NCBI GenBank assembly: GCA_024228115.1
Contig: JAAETT010000133.1
Location: 1-35,869 of the forward strand
Direction of reading: 5' to 3'
Source of the DNA: a bacterium
GTDB taxonomy: Bacteria > Myxococcota_A > UBA9160 > UBA6930
Length of the DNA: 35,869 bases
Shown: positions 3,547 through 35,844 of the stretch, one piece after another
How the letters are laid out: every line of letters begins with the position of its first letter
Position numbering within the stretch: the first letter of the stretch is position 1
Translations under genes and position numbers: made by a program
The notes under the pieces: model-generated
Databases searched by the model: none
What the model saw: the letters and a program-made list of their open reading frames with translations, nothing else
What the model was told of the DNA's origin: nothing

Positions 3547-4050
3547 CTAGCGCCTCCGGGCCGTCTTGCGGCGGGTGGTCTTCCGCGCGGTCTTGCGAGC
3601 CGGCCGCTTGGCAGCCTTCTTCCGCGTGGTCTTCTTGCGCGCCGTCTTTCGCTTCGTGGTGGCCTTCTTGCGGGTCGACGCCTTCTTGCGAGTGGTCGCC
3701 TTCTTCCGCGTCGTGGCCTTCTTGCGGGTCGTCGCCTTCTTGCGGGTGGTCTTCCGCACGGCTTTCTTCCGCGTCGTCTTGCGCGCAGTCTTGCGCCGGA
3801 CCGTCTTGCGCCGGGCAGGGCGGCCTCGTCGCGCCATCTTGGTGCGAGCGACATCACCCTGTTTGTCGATGAAGTACAGGAAGCCGTCTTCCCGCTCGAC
3901 ACCGGCCTTCTGGACCATCTGGGGCTTGACCCGAGAGGGCTTGCCGCCGCCCCGCGCCATCTTGGCCCGGCTCACATGCCCCTTTTTATCGAGGTAATAG
4001 AGCCAGCCCTTCTCTCGTGTGATTCCAGTCCTTGCGACCTTGGTGGCCAT
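3547..4050 (-). CDS. Histone H1-like Lys/Arg/Thr-rich protein with two N-terminal repeat modules
   Basis: 167 residues. Residues 5-34 and 46-75 are two copies of a 30-residue module (16 of 30 identical), with the pattern V..G..RE.G.LY..DK.G.V.R.KMAR. From about 76 to the end it is almost wholly K, R, T and A, including six-residue RKKATT units, like the tails of histone H1 and of bacterial HctB/AlgP-type proteins. Such tails bind DNA or RNA through charge; a nucleoid-binding role is inference. The start at 4050 has AAGGAGGGG just upstream; the frame is open to 4179 but lacks support there. It is monocistronic, with a promoter at 4151-4179 and a terminator at 3494-3527. I recall the small modules as short proteins in deltaproteobacteria, but cannot name a domain. 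Confidence 0.85.
   Translation of the reverse strand: MATKVARTGITREKGWLYYLDKKGHVSRAKMARGGGKPSRVKPQMVQKAGVEREDGFLYFIDKQGDVARTKMARRGRPARRKTVRRKTARKTTRKKAVRKTTRKKATTRKKATTRKKATTRKKASTRKKATTKRKTARKKTTRKKAAKRPARKTARKTTRRKTARRR
3664..3753. repeat. Five tandem 18-nt units encoding RKKATT
   Basis: Five consecutive 18-nt units (3664, 3682, 3700, 3718, 3736) each start CTTCTT and share a consensus like CTTCTTGCGGGTCGTCGC. They differ by a few bases per unit and encode the six-residue repeats of the basic tail. In-frame unit gain or loss would change tail length without a frameshift. Confidence 0.85.
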
Positions 4051-4150
4051 GGACCCCTCCTTTTCTGGTGTGGTTCGGTTTGCCCGCCCGGGGAGGCGGG
4101 GCTCTGGAGGAACCGCACCGCGGTGGGGGAGGACCGGCGGTACACCACAG

Positions 4151-4179
4151 AGGATCGGGAGCGCCCCCGACGGTGTCAA
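4151..4179 (-). promoter_or_regulatory. Sigma-70-type promoter of the histone-like gene
   Basis: The minus strand reads TTGACA (4179-4174), a 17-nt spacer, then GATCCT (4156-4151). The -35 is a perfect consensus; the -10 matches at three of six positions. The predicted start near 4144 gives a leader of about 95 nt before the ATG at 4050. The stretch 4051-4254 holds no other gene. Confidence 0.5.
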
Positions 4180-5359: not shown

Positions 5360-7777
5360 TTGAGCCGGTTCCGCATTCTGCTTGCGGCGGTCGTGGTGCT
5401 GGGTCTGGCCCTGGGGGCTGCCAGCAGCGCGTTCTACGTGGAGTTCGTGCGCGATCTGCCGAGCTTCGAGACGTTGGCCGATTACCGGCCGGCGCTCACC
5501 AGCAACGTCTTCGATCGTCAAGGCCGTCCGATCGGTGAGTTCTACGAGCATCGCCGCCAGCTGACGCCCCTGGAAGAGGTTCCGCAGCTCGTCATCCACG
5601 CCTTCCTGGCCGCCGAGGATGACACCTTCTACGAGCACGCCGGCGTGGACTACCTGTCCATCCTGCGGGCCGCCTGGGCGAACCTGCGAGCCGGCGGAGA
5701 AACGGTCCAGGGCGCCAGCACGATCACCCAACAGACGGTGAAGCAGCTGCTGCTCAGTTCCGAGCAGACCTACACGCGCAAGATCCGCGAGTTGATCCTG
5801 GCTCGGCGCATCGAGCAGCGCTTCAGCAAGGATGAGATCCTCTACCTCTACCTGAACCAGATCTACTTCGGCGCAGGTGCATACGGTATCGGCGAAGCGG
5901 CGCACACCTACTTCGGCAAGGCGATCGGCGAGATCGACGCCTCCGAAGCGGCGCTGCTCGCCGGGCTTCCGAAAGCGCCCGGTCGGAACTCGCCGTACTT
6001 GAATCCGGAACGCGCAGAGGAGCGGCGGGTGTACGTGCTCAACCGGATGCGCGAGGAGGGATTCCTCGATGTGGCGACCCATGCAGCAGCCGTGGAAGCG
6101 CCGCCGCTTCTCCGAGACCCGGAGGCAGACACCAACACCGCGGCTTCCTATGTCACCGAAGAGGTCCGGCGCTCGTTGGTCGCGATTCTCGGAAACGACG
6201 CCGTCCTGCACGGCGGTCTGCGCATCGAAACCAGCATCGACCTGGATCTTCAAACTGCAGCAGTCGCCGCCGTGCGCGGCGGTCTCGAGGCGCTCGACCG
6301 GCGTCGCGGCTTCCGCGGGCCGCTTCGCCGCATCGAAAACCTGGAGAGCGACGACCCGACCCAGGCCCTCGAGGAGATCGCTCGTCTGAATGCTCTCGAC
6401 GAGCAACCGGAGCTGCGTGGCCAGCCTCTGGTGGCATTGGTGCTCGAGGTCGAGAAGGAACGTGCGCGAATCGCACTGGCGCCGGGCATGGACGCGGAAC
6501 TCCGGCTGGAAGATCTGGGCTGGGCACGGCGCGAAGAAGAGCCGCGCCGCGAGGTCAAGGATCTCACGAAGGTCTTCTCCGCAGGCGACATCGTGCCGGT
6601 CACGCTCGGTACCACCGAGACCACAGACGCCGCCCTGCCGCGCGCCAGCCTGGCACAACACCCGGAAGCGCAAGGTGCCCTGTTGTCGTTCGAAGTCGAG
6701 ACCGGAGACATCCTCGCGATGGTCGGCGGCTATGACTTCGAAGACAGCGAGTTCAATCGCACGACCCAGGCAACCCGCCAACCCGGTTCCGCCTTCAAAC
6801 CGATCGTCTACGCATCGGCTCTGGGGCGAGGCTACACCCCCGCGTCGATCCTCTACGACCGGCCAGTCGTCATCGAAAGCGAGGGCTTCACGTGGCGCCC
6901 CGAGAACTACGGACGCAAGTTCCTCGGGCCCATTTTGTTAGGCGAGGCATTGGCGCGTTCGGTGAACAACGCCACGATCCACTTGCTGCAAGATGTCGGC
7001 ATCGACCACGTCATGGAGTTCAGTCGGGAAATCGGCATCGAGGGGCCGCTCGAGCGCAATCTCGGCCTGGCCCTCGGCTCGAACCCGGTCACGCTGCTCG
7101 AGATCACCCGGGCCTATGGGATCTTCGCCGCAGGCGGACGACGGGTCGAGCCGCGTTTGATCCTCCGGGTGCTCGACCGCAATGGCGAGGTGCTCCTGGA
7201 AGCACTGCCCCTCACGGCGCCGACGGATGAGCCGGCTGAAGCCGAAATTGCGGAGCTTCCCGAGCCCCCGGAAGAAAACGAACTCCCCGAGGGCTACGCG
7301 ATGCCACCGCAGCAAGCCTACCTGGCCAGCTCCGTGCTGAGGCTGGTCGTCGAACACCCGCGCGGAACCGGCCGCCGTGCCCGAAGCCTGGGACGTCCTG
7401 TCGCTGGCAAGACCGGCACCACCAACGACCAGGGAGACGCCTGGTTCGTGGGCTTCTCCCCGGATGTCGCCACCGGTGTCTGGGTCGGCTTCGACGAGAA
7501 GCGCGTGCTAGGCCGAGGCGAGACCGGCGGTCGTGCTGCCCTGCCGATCTGGATCGACTTCATGGGCGCCGCCCTGGCCGACCGGCCGGTGCGCGACTTC
7601 GCCGTTCCCGAAGGCATCGTGTTCGCCCGCATCGATGGCAAGAGCGGCCTTCTGGCCGCCTCGGGCAGCGACCAGACCCTCTTCCAGGCCTTCGCCGAAG
7701 GCACGGAACCCACCGAACAAGCCGACCGCGCCGTGACCGTCTCCAAGGAACGACGGCGCCTCCAACAAGACCTCTAA
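5360..7777 (+). CDS. Class A penicillin-binding protein (PBP1A-type)
   Basis: 805 residues, bifunctional peptidoglycan glycosyltransferase/transpeptidase. A signal-anchor segment is at about 6-28. The GT51 domain has catalytic Glu86 (AAEDDTFYEH), GASTITQQ (118-125), and RKIRELILARRIEQ with LYLNQIYFGAGAYGIGEAA (about 140-180). The transpeptidase has nucleophile Ser477 in SAFK, SVN (534-536) and KTGTT (684-688), so both activities look intact. An OB-like insert lies between the domains, as in PBP1A. The start is TTG at 5360 with GGAG at 5348-5351. A 12-codon ATG ORF (5325-5363) ends across this start. The stop directly abuts the palindrome at 7778. Confidence 0.94.
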   Translation: MSRFRILLAAVVVLGLALGAASSAFYVEFVRDLPSFETLADYRPALTSNVFDRQGRPIGEFYEHRRQLTPLEEVPQLVIHAFLAAEDDTFYEHAGVDYLSILRAAWANLRAGGETVQGASTITQQTVKQLLLSSEQTYTRKIRELILARRIEQRFSKDEILYLYLNQIYFGAGAYGIGEAAHTYFGKAIGEIDASEAALLAGLPKAPGRNSPYLNPERAEERRVYVLNRMREEGFLDVATHAAAVEAPPLLRDPEADTNTAASYVTEEVRRSLVAILGNDAVLHGGLRIETSIDLDLQTAAVAAVRGGLEALDRRRGFRGPLRRIENLESDDPTQALEEIARLNALDEQPELRGQPLVALVLEVEKERARIALAPGMDAELRLEDLGWARREEEPRREVKDLTKVFSAGDIVPVTLGTTETTDAALPRASLAQHPEAQGALLSFEVETGDILAMVGGYDFEDSEFNRTTQATRQPGSAFKPIVYASALGRGYTPASILYDRPVVIESEGFTWRPENYGRKFLGPILLGEALARSVNNATIHLLQDVGIDHVMEFSREIGIEGPLERNLGLALGSNPVTLLEITRAYGIFAAGGRRVEPRLILRVLDRNGEVLLEALPLTAPTDEPAEAEIAELPEPPEENELPEGYAMPPQQAYLASSVLRLVVEHPRGTGRRARSLGRPVAGKTGTTNDQGDAWFVGFSPDVATGVWVGFDEKRVLGRGETGGRAALPIWIDFMGAALADRPVRDFAVPEGIVFARIDGKSGLLAASGSDQTLFQAFAEGTEPTEQADRAVTVSKERRRLQQDL

Positions 7778-7891
7778 CCCAACAAGTCAACCAGCGGGGA
7801 CGGGGTTTACAATTGACTTCTTGCAAAGCAAGAAGTCAATTGTAAACCCCGTCCCCGCTGGTTGACTTTTCCCGCTGGTTGACTTGTTGGG
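7778..7891. repeat. Composite palindromic repeat, copy 2 (41-bp and 21-bp inverted repeats)
   Basis: Arms 7784-7824 and 7828-7868 are perfect reverse complements over 41 bp with a 3-nt loop. A second 21-bp perfect pair (7778-7798 and 7871-7891) encloses it, because the right side carries a tandem 15-bp duplication (7854-7868 and 7871-7885). The core is AGCGGGGACGGGG followed by TTTACAATTGACTT, shared with 35813-35848. It fills the space between convergent pbp and HAD genes: the pbp stop abuts its left end and the HAD stop (7836-7838) lies in the right arm. A bidirectional terminator or REP-like role is plausible. Confidence 0.93.
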
Positions 7892-8552
7892 GGAGGTCGG
7901 CGGGGGTGGCGGCCAGGTGGTCTGCGCCGGCTTGCTCGAGTTCGTCTTTGCCGCCGATTCCCCAGACGGCGCCGATCGTGGTCAGGCCGTGGGTTCGGCC
8001 GGCGATCACGTCGAAATGACGATCGCCGACCATTGCGGCGCAGCAATCCGGTGGCTCCAAGCCCAGGATCCGGAGTGCCCGGCCGACCGTCGCGGTCTTG
8101 TCCTCGTGATGCGTCTTGTCGAGGGGCGCGCCTACGATGGCCTCGAAATGGACGGCCAGACCGAGGCTCTCGAGGATCGGCCTGGCGAATTCCACGGGTT
8201 TCGAGGTCGCGACGGCCAACCTGTGATCGGCGGCGAGCGTTTCGAGCACCTCGGGGATCCCTTCGAATGCGGGCGTCGCCTTGGGTGCCACGATCGTGTA
8301 GCGCTCCCGGTAGTGTTCGATGGCGGCCGGTGCCAGTGCGGGATCGGCACCCCGGGCGGAGAGCAGCGCGCGAAACACATCGTGGAGCGAAGCGCCGATC
8401 CAGCCGTGGAGCGCTTCGACCGGCTCTGGAGCCAACCCCAGTTCGATCAAACCATGGTTCAGGCATTGGCTGATCGCATGACGTGAATCGACCAGGACAC
8501 CATCGAGATCGAACAAGATGGCGTCGTGCAGAGTGCGATCGTGGATTGACAT
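7836..8552 (-). CDS. HAD-family phosphatase (phosphoglycolate phosphatase-like), repeat-derived C-terminus
   Basis: 238 residues. HAD motif I is FDLDGVLVDS (with the nucleophile and acid/base Asp), followed by an alpha-helical cap, motif II VATSKP, motif III Lys in KTHHEDKTATVGRAL and motif IV MVGDRHFDVIAGR. This matches the Gph/PGMB subfamily; substrate (phosphoglycolate or another small phosphoester) is not determined. The final residues (VNQREKSTSGDGVYN) are encoded by the palindromic repeat and its tandem duplication, and the stop is in the repeat arm. The same tail occurs in the kinase at 34156. The start is ATG at 8552; a GTG at 8567 is possible. It is divergent from the histidine kinase. 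Confidence 0.88.
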   Translation of the reverse strand: MSIHDRTLHDAILFDLDGVLVDSRHAISQCLNHGLIELGLAPEPVEALHGWIGASLHDVFRALLSARGADPALAPAAIEHYRERYTIVAPKATPAFEGIPEVLETLAADHRLAVATSKPVEFARPILESLGLAVHFEAIVGAPLDKTHHEDKTATVGRALRILGLEPPDCCAAMVGDRHFDVIAGRTHGLTTIGAVWGIGGKDELEQAGADHLAATPADLPQQVNQREKSTSGDGVYN

Positions 8553-8575
8553 ACCTACGGTCGGCACGTTAGCAA
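8546..8575 (+). promoter_or_regulatory. Possible sigma-70 promoter of the histidine kinase
   Basis: TTGACA (8546-8551), an 18-nt spacer and TAGCAA (8570-8575). The -35 is consensus, the -10 weak and the spacer one longer than ideal. It overlaps the start of the divergent HAD gene. If used, transcription would begin near 8582, favouring a kinase start at 8626 or later over 8581. Confidence 0.3.
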
Positions 8576-15194: not shown

Positions 15195-16256
15195 CTACTT
15201 CCCGACGGAACGTCGCAGGCGCGCCCCGCCATGCAGGAAGACGACGGCCGAGGGTTGGATCTCTGTGACGACCAGCACGCCAACCGCGTCCCCCTCCTTC
15301 AACTCGAGGGGTTCGACGAAACCTTCGACCTCGACCTGCGCACTGCGCCGATCCGGGCTGGGATGCCAGACGGTTCTCGTGACGTGCACCGTCGGCGCCG
15401 GGGGAATCGACACGACTCGCGTAGGCCGGGGTTTGGCCGGCGGAGGCTTTGGTGCCGGTTCGGGCTTAGCGGTTGGAGGCGTGGACCTGGGTTCGGGCTC
15501 GGTTCGCGCCGCTGGCGGTGCCAATGCGACACTCGCCTCGGCCCGCGGTGCGACCGGCGTGGGGGCGGGCTCGACGGAAGGCGGATCCTCGGGGAGCGCC
15601 GCGGGTAGCGAAGCGACCGGAGGCTCAGCGCGGGAAGGGGCCGGTGACGGAGGAACCGATCGAACAGTGCTCGCAGGCGGAGAGGTCGGCCCTTCTGCCG
15701 TCGGCTGGATCTCGGCCGCGCCCGCCAGAGGAGGCGGTTCCGCGGCAGGCGGCACGACCCGGCCTCGAGGCGATTCCGGGGCGGGCGGCACAACCCGGCC
15801 TCGAGGCAGCTCGGCGGCCGGAGGCGGAGCAACGTTGGATACGGGCGGCTTGTCAGACACCGCCGCGGCGAGGCGCGTAGCGATGCTATTGGCGAGGTCG
15901 CCCGGATCGTTGCCGATCGACGCTGTCGGCACGGACTTGTCCAGATCGCTGCTGACAGCCGCTGTCTCTGTGGGCTCGGCAGCTGCGCGGAGGGCAGGCC
16001 GGGCTTCGCCAGGCGCCGTCTGAGCGATTTCCTTCTCGGCTTGCTCGGGGCTCCACAACCAGACCAATCCCAGCGTGAACGTCACGACCGCAGCGCCCAC
16101 CAGGGCGCCGCGCCAGGGCAGCCTGCGCCCCTCCTGCGATGCGGGCTCTGCAGGAGCAGCAGATTCCAGCGGGGCCCCGGGCTCCGCGTCCCCGGGCGTA
16201 CGACCGAGTCGCTCGTCTTCCTCCACCTTTTCGAGCGCCTTCAAGATCGTACTCAT
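15195..16256 (-). CDS. gspB: GspB-like type II secretion assembly protein
   Basis: 353 residues. It begins MSTILKALEKVEEDERLG, the standard GspB/ExeB N-terminus; a membrane segment is at about 50-68 (ALVGAAVVTFTLGLVWLW). A Pro/Ala/Glu linker of about 190 residues follows, with a tandem PRGRVVPPA element. The C-terminal domain (VTRTVWHPSPDRRSAQVEVEG to VGVLVVTEIQPSAVVFLHGG) matches the periplasmic GspB domain. It binds GspA and peptidoglycan to help the secretin assemble. It overlaps gspA by ATGA, so stoichiometric translation is likely. The linker is longer than in most GspB. No other T2SS gene is nearby. Confidence 0.85.
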   Translation of the reverse strand: MSTILKALEKVEEDERLGRTPGDAEPGAPLESAAPAEPASQEGRRLPWRGALVGAAVVTFTLGLVWLWSPEQAEKEIAQTAPGEARPALRAAAEPTETAAVSSDLDKSVPTASIGNDPGDLANSIATRLAAAVSDKPPVSNVAPPPAAELPRGRVVPPAPESPRGRVVPPAAEPPPLAGAAEIQPTAEGPTSPPASTVRSVPPSPAPSRAEPPVASLPAALPEDPPSVEPAPTPVAPRAEASVALAPPAARTEPEPRSTPPTAKPEPAPKPPPAKPRPTRVVSIPPAPTVHVTRTVWHPSPDRRSAQVEVEGFVEPLELKEGDAVGVLVVTEIQPSAVVFLHGGARLRRSVGK

Positions 16257-34155: not shown

Positions 34156-35844
34156 GTGAACGAACAGGCCTTGCTCCTGGCCGGTGTCGTGTTCATCGCC
34201 TTCTTGGCGGCGCCGATGATCTGGTTCGGCGCCGCGAATGGAGGCGTTGCCTGGTCTGCGGGTTGGATTTGTCTGTTTCTCTCCGGCGTCTGTGTCGTAC
34301 TCGCCGAGACCTGGCCAGCGTTGCGAGCCGGATACCCGATCCTGGGCACCGCTTTCCCGACGTTGATCTGGATTGGAACCCGACAATTCGCGGGGCGCAG
34401 CGTCCCCCGAAGCGTGCTTCTCGCAGCTTCCTTGGCAGCGTTGTTACGGGTAGGCCTCCAGCCATTCGTCTCCGAGGCAGCGACGCAGGCGACCGGCGCG
34501 AGCCTCGTCAGCCTTGGCGCCTTCGCGGCCGCGTACGAAATGCAGCGGCTCTCTCGCTCGCCGCGCGGAGGCACGCCCGACACGTTGTTGGCCTTGACCA
34601 TGCCACTCATCGCCGCAACGGCCTGCCTTTATGCGTGGTACCGGGTCTCGGGCAACGAAGCGAACGGCATGTTCCTCTGGCTGTTGACCGGCATCTTGAT
34701 CGCTGGTCTCCAGGCGAACTCCGTGGTCGGTCGGATAGGACGAGCCGCGGAGCGCGGCCGCGCGACCCTCGCTGCACTCTTCGATTCCGTGCCGATTGGC
34801 CTGGTGCTGTCCGACGCGAGTGGCCGCATCAAGCTGACCAACCCCACGATGGCCAAGATGGTTGGCGACGAACCAGCCGACGCGTGGAAGACACGCTCCG
34901 TCGATGATCTCCTTACGCACCTCGGGGGAGCCGGTACAGACCACACGCAGCGTGCCTCCCATCGACTCGATGATCTGCGAGGAGATGTCTGCGAGGAAGA
35001 ACTCCAGCTACCAGACGATCGCGTCATCGAAACACACGGTCGAACCGTTCTCGCCGAGGATGGCGCGATCGTCGGTCGTTTGATCCTTGCGCGCGATGTC
35101 ACGATCGAGCGGCAGTTGCAGGAAAAGGCACAACGCACGGGGCGGCTCGAGACCCTCGGCCGACTGGCGGGTGGCATCGCCCATGATTTCAACAACAAGC
35201 TCACCACGGTCATCGGCAATGCCGCATTGGTGCGTTCGAGCCTGCCGTCCGGACATCCTCAGCATGCATCCCTTGCCGATCTCGAGAGCGCGGCGAATGA
35301 ATGCGCTGACCTGACTCGTGATCTTCTCGACTTTGCCAAGCGAGGCCCGCGTTCGGCGCGCCCCCTCGAACTGGAGCCCTTCCTGAATGAGCTGATAGAC
35401 GGCTTGGAATTCCGCCTGGGCTCCGACGTGACGCTCGACATCCAAGTGCACCCGGACGTGGGCACGATCCGAGCCGACCCCGCGCAACTCGAACGCGTCA
35501 TCACGAATCTGCTGCTCAACGCCCGCGATGCCGTGGCCCATGGAGGCTGGATCCATCTGGCAGCGACGCGTGTTCAGCGGGCCGAGTTGGAACAAATCGA
35601 GATCGCCATATCAGATGACGGCATCGGCATGGACGAAGGAACGCGCCAGCGCATCTTCGACCCGTATTTCTCCATCAAGGCCAGTGGAACCGCCGCTACC
35701 GGCCTGGGCTTGGCCATCGTCCACGGAATCGTCACCTCCCACGACGGGGAGATCCACGTAGAAAGCTGTCCAGGGCAGGGAACGAAGGTCATCACGACCT
35801 GGCCCACAGCGGAAGTCAACAGCGGGGACGGGGTTTACAATTGA
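34156..35844 (+). CDS. Membrane PAS histidine kinase, repeat-derived C-terminus
   Basis: 562 residues. The N-terminal 190 residues carry about six membrane helices (for example LLLAGVVFIAFLAAPMIWFG), then a PAS domain (ALFDSVPIGLVLSDASGRIKLTNPTMAKMVGDEP), H-box LGRLAGGIAHDFNNKLTTVIGNA, N-box QLERVITNLLLNARDAV, G1 ISDDGIGM, F-box FDPYFSIK and G2 TGLGLAIVHGIV. It resembles NtrB-like hybrid kinases but has no receiver. The last residues NSGDGVYN are encoded by a repeat copy and match the HAD protein's end. The GTG at 34156 has GGGGAG about 6-7 nt upstream. A partner regulator is not adjacent. Confidence 0.9.
   Translation: MNEQALLLAGVVFIAFLAAPMIWFGAANGGVAWSAGWICLFLSGVCVVLAETWPALRAGYPILGTAFPTLIWIGTRQFAGRSVPRSVLLAASLAALLRVGLQPFVSEAATQATGASLVSLGAFAAAYEMQRLSRSPRGGTPDTLLALTMPLIAATACLYAWYRVSGNEANGMFLWLLTGILIAGLQANSVVGRIGRAAERGRATLAALFDSVPIGLVLSDASGRIKLTNPTMAKMVGDEPADAWKTRSVDDLLTHLGGAGTDHTQRASHRLDDLRGDVCEEELQLPDDRVIETHGRTVLAEDGAIVGRLILARDVTIERQLQEKAQRTGRLETLGRLAGGIAHDFNNKLTTVIGNAALVRSSLPSGHPQHASLADLESAANECADLTRDLLDFAKRGPRSARPLELEPFLNELIDGLEFRLGSDVTLDIQVHPDVGTIRADPAQLERVITNLLLNARDAVAHGGWIHLAATRVQRAELEQIEIAISDDGIGMDEGTRQRIFDPYFSIKASGTAATGLGLAIVHGIVTSHDGEIHVESCPGQGTKVITTWPTAEVNSGDGVYN

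Follow-up and report, generated by a model that had tools for sequence, protein, structure and literature searches.

Repeats that supply genes with stop codons have been described before. The termini of REP sequences often provide TAG stops, and convergent REPs are described as lying no more than 20 bp from the end of either gene (PMC3733652). The same account presents TIRtrons, in which some RAYT-like genes are flanked by inverted repeats lacking GTAG. For the pneumococcal repeat BOX, 36 genes are listed whose extreme 3' end and stop codon are encoded by the repeat (PMC3049150). REPINs are reported to carry compensatory changes (PMC3116915), and orthologous RAYTs are reported to be flanked by different REP classes (PMC3686654).

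The window considered here, that is, the whole stretch of 35,869 nt that was analysed, contains two unrelated genes ending in one repeat-coded peptide (Table 1). The sensor histidine kinase has the C-terminus TAEVNSGDGVYN-TGA, and the HAD phosphatase ends with REKSTSGDGVYN-TGA. Their final codons are identical, AGC GGG GAC GGG GTT TAC AAT TGA, and both tails come from one repeat arm read in the same frame, as noticed in the preliminary description. The arm at the kinase opens with AAGTCAAC-AGCGGGG, and the contig (C133) terminates within this copy. No kinase orthologues with the same end point were found in four relatives from the genus. Folded as single-stranded DNA, the complete copy at the HAD gene forms a hairpin of -63.7 kcal/mol, compared with a mean of -20.1 for shuffled sequences (z = -14). 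The TAA codon of the gene converging on it (7775-7777) lies 6 nt outside the element. On the right side only, this copy is accompanied by an extra outer-arm segment (7869-7891), which adds QQVNQREK to the HAD tail and is probably a partial duplication or a nested insertion. The HAD orthologue of the sister genome G003 has a single arm at this place.

Table 1. Features of the window at the two tail-bearing genes.
Feature	Position	Strand	Remarks
Left element arm, truncated by the contig end	35813..35869	+	Encodes the kinase tail VNSGDGVYN-TGA; from sequence and arm alignment
PAS / HisKA / HATPase_c sensor histidine kinase	34156..35844	+	Stop TGA (35842-35844) inside the arm
Full palindromic element copy	7784..7868	.	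Arms AAGTCAACCAGCGGGGACGGGGTTTACAATTGACTT
Additional outer arm segment (CCCGCTGGTTGACTTGTTGGG)	7871..7891	.	From inverted repeat I14 and sequence
HAD-family phosphatase gene	7836..8567	-	Stop within the right arm of the copy at 7784..7868
Penicillin-binding-protein-like gene, converging on the copy at 7784..7868	5360..7777	+	Assigned from sequence reading alone

The SGDGVYN-stop string is the translated arm of a near-perfect palindrome of roughly 81-103 bp, counted from the first to the last arm base. In its usual form the arm reads AAGTCAAC(C)AGCGGGGACGGGGTTTACAATTGACTT; next come an inner hairpin that is specific to the copy and the mirror arm. There are about 50 palindrome copies in the 6.4 Mb (6.41 Mb) genome. 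The 28-nt arm with at most 3 mismatches has 46 forward and 41 reverse matches genome-wide, and a shorter arm core has 50 and 43, all these counts being lower bounds because MAG assemblies break at the copies. The reversed control pattern yielded no matches, which excludes chance occurrence of the repeat. Every copy was retrieved with its flanks, and 53 sites were read.

The two arms of a copy change together. In the 40-nt arm regions the mean difference is 1.1 nt within a copy and 6.9 nt between copies. Departures from the consensus are matched on both arms in 151 cases, some of which reflect a one-C/two-C length variant, and unmatched in 43. The five intact copies shared with G003 carry 12 changes on both arms and one on a single arm. 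These paired changes point to the hairpin, as DNA or RNA, as the unit that is constrained or copied. In one pair of orthologous copies (L058 and L111) the outer arms are the same and the inner hairpin is wholly replaced while remaining internally perfect, as if the tip of the hairpin had been swapped as a unit.

One gene for a Y1 (IS200-like) transposase of 303 aa is flanked by copies of the element in the same genome (L060 3250-4161, minus strand), the flanking sequences being a degenerate arm (3239) and, on the other side, a copy (4241). The protein matches PF01797 above the cut-off (2.9e-10). Its match to the RAYT model NF047646 (E = 9.3e-14, 51.5 bits) falls below the curated cut-off of 80. 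The H60-V61-H62 residues of the NHVHL motif, that is, the HUH motif of the Y1 domain, are invariant across three genes. A sequence search of PDB with this transposase gave no match at E up to 0.01. A Y1 search of G003 found no transposase gene between element copies, so that the case for a cognate pair is incomplete in G003. Given its position, the L060 transposase presumably moves the element.

The element family belongs to a known kind of stop-supplying repeats, since REP- and BOX-supplied stops have already been published, and it is closest to TIR repeats and REPINs. As in the TIRtrons and TIRYT elements presented in PMC3733652, a RAYT-like Y1 gene lies between long inverted repeats without GTAG, extra copies are scattered genome-wide, and the core is of the GGGG... 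type; some TIRs are also self-complementary. Unlike them, the core is GGGGACGG and not GGGGWSAS, with G in place of the motif A; that account assigns GGGGWSAS to part of the family. The near-perfect palindromes of the present length with a variable inner hairpin are another difference. As in REPINs and RAYTs (described in PMC3116915, PMC2817692 and PMC8049555), two inverted units and a diverse spacer form one hairpin with paired changes, and the transposase gene adjoins its own repeat class; the inner stems vary, and decayed half copies occur in G003 as solo remnants. However, GTAG is absent, each arm has a foot stem of 6-7 bp (AAGTCAA/TTGACTT) instead of the classical REP palindrome, and the transposase falls short of the NCBIfam cut-off for RAYTs.

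The arm consensus AAGTCAACCAGCGGGGACGGGGTTTACAATTGACTT does not contain GTAG, and the repeat unit does not begin with it, which separates the family from the GTAG REP superfamily. The CGTC superfamily has units ending in CGTC and no linked transposase; here CGTC is only internal, in the complement, and a transposase is linked. GTAG REPs, in the description of PMC3733652, are likewise mobile repeats near gene 3' ends that supply stops, with a minority in the ends of coding regions. The stops differ: here a fixed peptide precedes a TGA within the arm, or a host T completes a TAA. BOX also encodes gene 3' ends and stops, but its sequence and boxA/B/C architecture are unrelated, and the account in PMC3049150, as far as it covers this, reports no cognate Y1 gene.

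The copies are concentrated at gene ends, which were taken from a gene caller trained on the retrieved DNA (a retrained periodic model, coding density 89%). Thirty-eight copies have a gene on each side; the two neighbours are convergent in 25 cases, tandem in 11 and divergent in 2. The 260 element-free junctions comprise 32 convergent, 177 tandem and 51 divergent cases (for convergent junctions, 25/38 vs 32/260, odds ratio 13.7, p = 7e-12). At 16 borders the stop codon is situated exactly at the arm edge, defined relative to GTCAAC, and in 13 of these it is TAA composed of a host T and the AA of the arm; overall TAA ends only 30 of the 326 called genes. About 30 borders have the stop 1-20 nt outside the arm, and 14 have it inside. 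Thus the element does bring its own stop, as had been suggested, either as the TGA within the arm or through the edge AA that converts a host T into TAA.

It had also been proposed that the elements preferentially land near stop codons. The concentration at gene ends holds, but a preference for stops is not needed to account for it. Where no element is present, the median gap between convergent genes is 16 bp, and therefore anything surviving there adjoins two stops. A transposase that targets stop codons or a motif containing them, directing insertion to gene ends, would agree with the clustering of stops at 0 to -10 nt relative to the edge of the arm and with the short motifs beside the hairpin that are employed in RAYT cleavage, as described in PMC8266576. 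It would also agree with the host remnant at convergent copies, whose median is -7 bp compared with 16 bp for element-free gaps (p = 0.0008), but a smaller remnant is expected when the element itself brings the stop. Moreover, genes run into fourteen copies before reaching any host stop, with varied bases preceding AAGTCAAC, and the pattern already follows from short convergent gaps combined with the removal of harmful insertions. Hence we consider such targeting unlikely.

In our opinion, it is highly probable that the repeat belongs to the non-autonomous mobile palindromes of the REPIN or TIR-repeat type and is copied by a RAYT-like Y1 transposase, surviving at gene ends. The folded single strand would be copied, most likely by the transposase of the same genome. 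The surviving copies would be those that landed in the short gaps between converging genes or in the last few codons of a gene, which are weakly constrained, so that their placement would reflect survivorship rather than targeting. The shared C-terminal peptide would then arise incidentally, through the new stop that the element provides.

Since the element is a palindrome, neighbour genes entering from either side read the same arm. In one frame it encodes (KST)SGDGVYN followed by TGA. In the second frame there is an immediate stop, TAA, when the host base preceding the AA of the element is T. The third frame mostly reads on (examples are L050 and L087). Genes stopping at or inside the element are distributed among the frames as 15, 16 and 3 (p = 0.01), the read-on frame being the rarest, as expected if selection removes long extensions.

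The tail is not confined to the kinase and the HAD phosphatase, nor are the copies always intergenic. It was found at 14 gene ends of unrelated proteins genome-wide (12 with SGDGVYN, one with TGGDGVYN and one with SGDGGYN), a count that covers the stretches around copies and matches, so that SGDGVYN ends encoded by unrelated DNA would escape it. The preliminary description, which had two such proteins, was right about the repeat being common to non-homologous genes and too low in its count. Translated arms are closer to the 24-nt consensus than other arms (0.14 vs 0.79 mismatches, p = 0.016), a comparison that is biased because the definition of the translated set leaves out arms that are heavily decayed or have a broken TGA. 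The better match could hint at selection on the peptide.

Comparison with relatives bears on whether SGDGVYN has a role of its own. Among 98 genomes searched, the element is present only in its own genome and in G003; its arm is absent from the 96 other relatives at a threshold of at most one mismatch. One full copy was seen in a MAG labelled Alphaproteobacteria (OFTM70, L101 180-240), which may reflect transfer or a misplaced contig. G003 has 15+19 arms, decayed half copies of the element, and seven ends with the tail or its variant. Four relatives from the genus were searched with the C-terminal portion of each of the 14 tail proteins, and the ends found there were read. In G001 and G002, which do not have the element, the orthologues terminate close to the insertion point, at a distance of a few to about 15 residues (e.g. 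HGLTKNKSTGGDGVYN in the original genome and HGLTKP* in G001). The tail is kept in four of the 13 G003 orthologues, in one of them as NGDGVYD, and is lost or changed in nine. The latter have decayed copies, a different frame or no element; in one of the nine (L123) the stop has disappeared and the reading frame continues. In G001, just past the stop of the orthologue of the L057 tail gene (L138), there are repeats GACCCCTTCGTCAAC(G/A)AGTTGACC, possibly another related repeat.

These data make it very improbable that SGDGVYN is a functional C-terminal tag (a degron, a localisation signal or an interaction motif) spread by the repeat. The occurrence on fourteen unrelated proteins and the slightly better conservation of translated arms would fit a tag. 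However, most of the G003 orthologues have not retained the tail, the relative G004 has a different peptide at orthologous ends (see below), and the changes in an arm have counterparts in its partner, which in most cases is not translated. Besides, SGDGVYN does not resemble the tmRNA tag of this genome, ADDNYALAA. The tag-like phenomenon raised earlier is thus not borne out, and the case cautions that unrelated proteins can have a C-terminal peptide in common without its being a motif or tag. It is a clean natural example of one transposase-linked palindrome rewriting the C-termini of many unrelated proteins.

G004 has no arms of this family. Instead, a diverged palindrome arm, GGGGCCGGAGTTAAGAATTCACTT, is present there in 21+18 copies, and G004 proteins entering the palindrome end with KRGRS or KGGRS. 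The G004 family is present at 14 of 25 gene ends orthologous to the original element sites (12 of 23 without the transposase locus). Control gene ends from these loci carry it in 2 of 54 cases (p = 2e-6). The exact boundaries at orthologous sites are often several nucleotides apart. The usual forms of the arm foot are AAGTCAA/TTGACTT in the original genome and AAGTGAA/TTCACTT in G004, the differences being paired. The G004 orthologue of the L060 transposase is 67% identical, syntenic and has the same neighbours; its gene (C412 15338-15661) lies between copies of the G004 family at 15202 and 16203. Different repeat classes flanking orthologous RAYTs are on record for REPs as well (PMC3686654).

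The co-occurrence means either an inherited site with rewritten sequence or repeated insertion at favoured ends. Only tentatively can it be suggested that the gene-end sites are inherited while each lineage replaces the element sequence throughout its genome, jointly with the orthologous transposase, with SGDGVYN swapped for KRGRS on the same proteins between sisters. Less expected is the finding that many gene ends are occupied by one palindrome family in one sister species and by another family in the other. In the REP, TIR and BOX literature, to the extent covered by the sources cited here, we found no description of an identical tail on many proteins that is exchanged in sister species. 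The orthologous transposases with different palindromes at many shared gene ends make the joint change of repeat and transposase testable.

The element may also be retained at gene ends through a function of its hairpin, which would block transcriptional read-through in both directions or stabilise mRNA 3' ends. Such functions have been proposed for REPs (as presented in PMC3733652), and the excess of copies between convergent genes, the maintenance of near-perfect hairpins through paired changes and the different palindrome families at gene ends of sister species are all consistent with them. On the other hand, the orthologous junctions in G001 and G002 end without the element, and transposition or arm-to-arm conversion would also maintain hairpins. 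We regard a hairpin function as conceivable but doubtful; it is compatible with a mobile element surviving at gene ends. Whether repeats at convergent ends are tolerated passengers or useful hairpins becomes testable in this system.

Some other repeats were observed. The window contains a second palindrome family at 269-363 (CTAGCGGGGACGTTCCTTGCGAACTTG...), with arms 98% complementary. Its core, GCGGGGACGTTC, is common to the 36-nt inverted repeats (L090 2877-2912 and 3858-3893) around the second RAYT-like gene of the genome. The second RAYT-like protein (L033 1462-2352) is 41% identical to the first. Finally, the region 3547-4179 of the window encodes a Lys/Arg-rich protein with many KKATTRKKA-like repeats and contains 18 bp tandem DNA repeats at 3655-3751.
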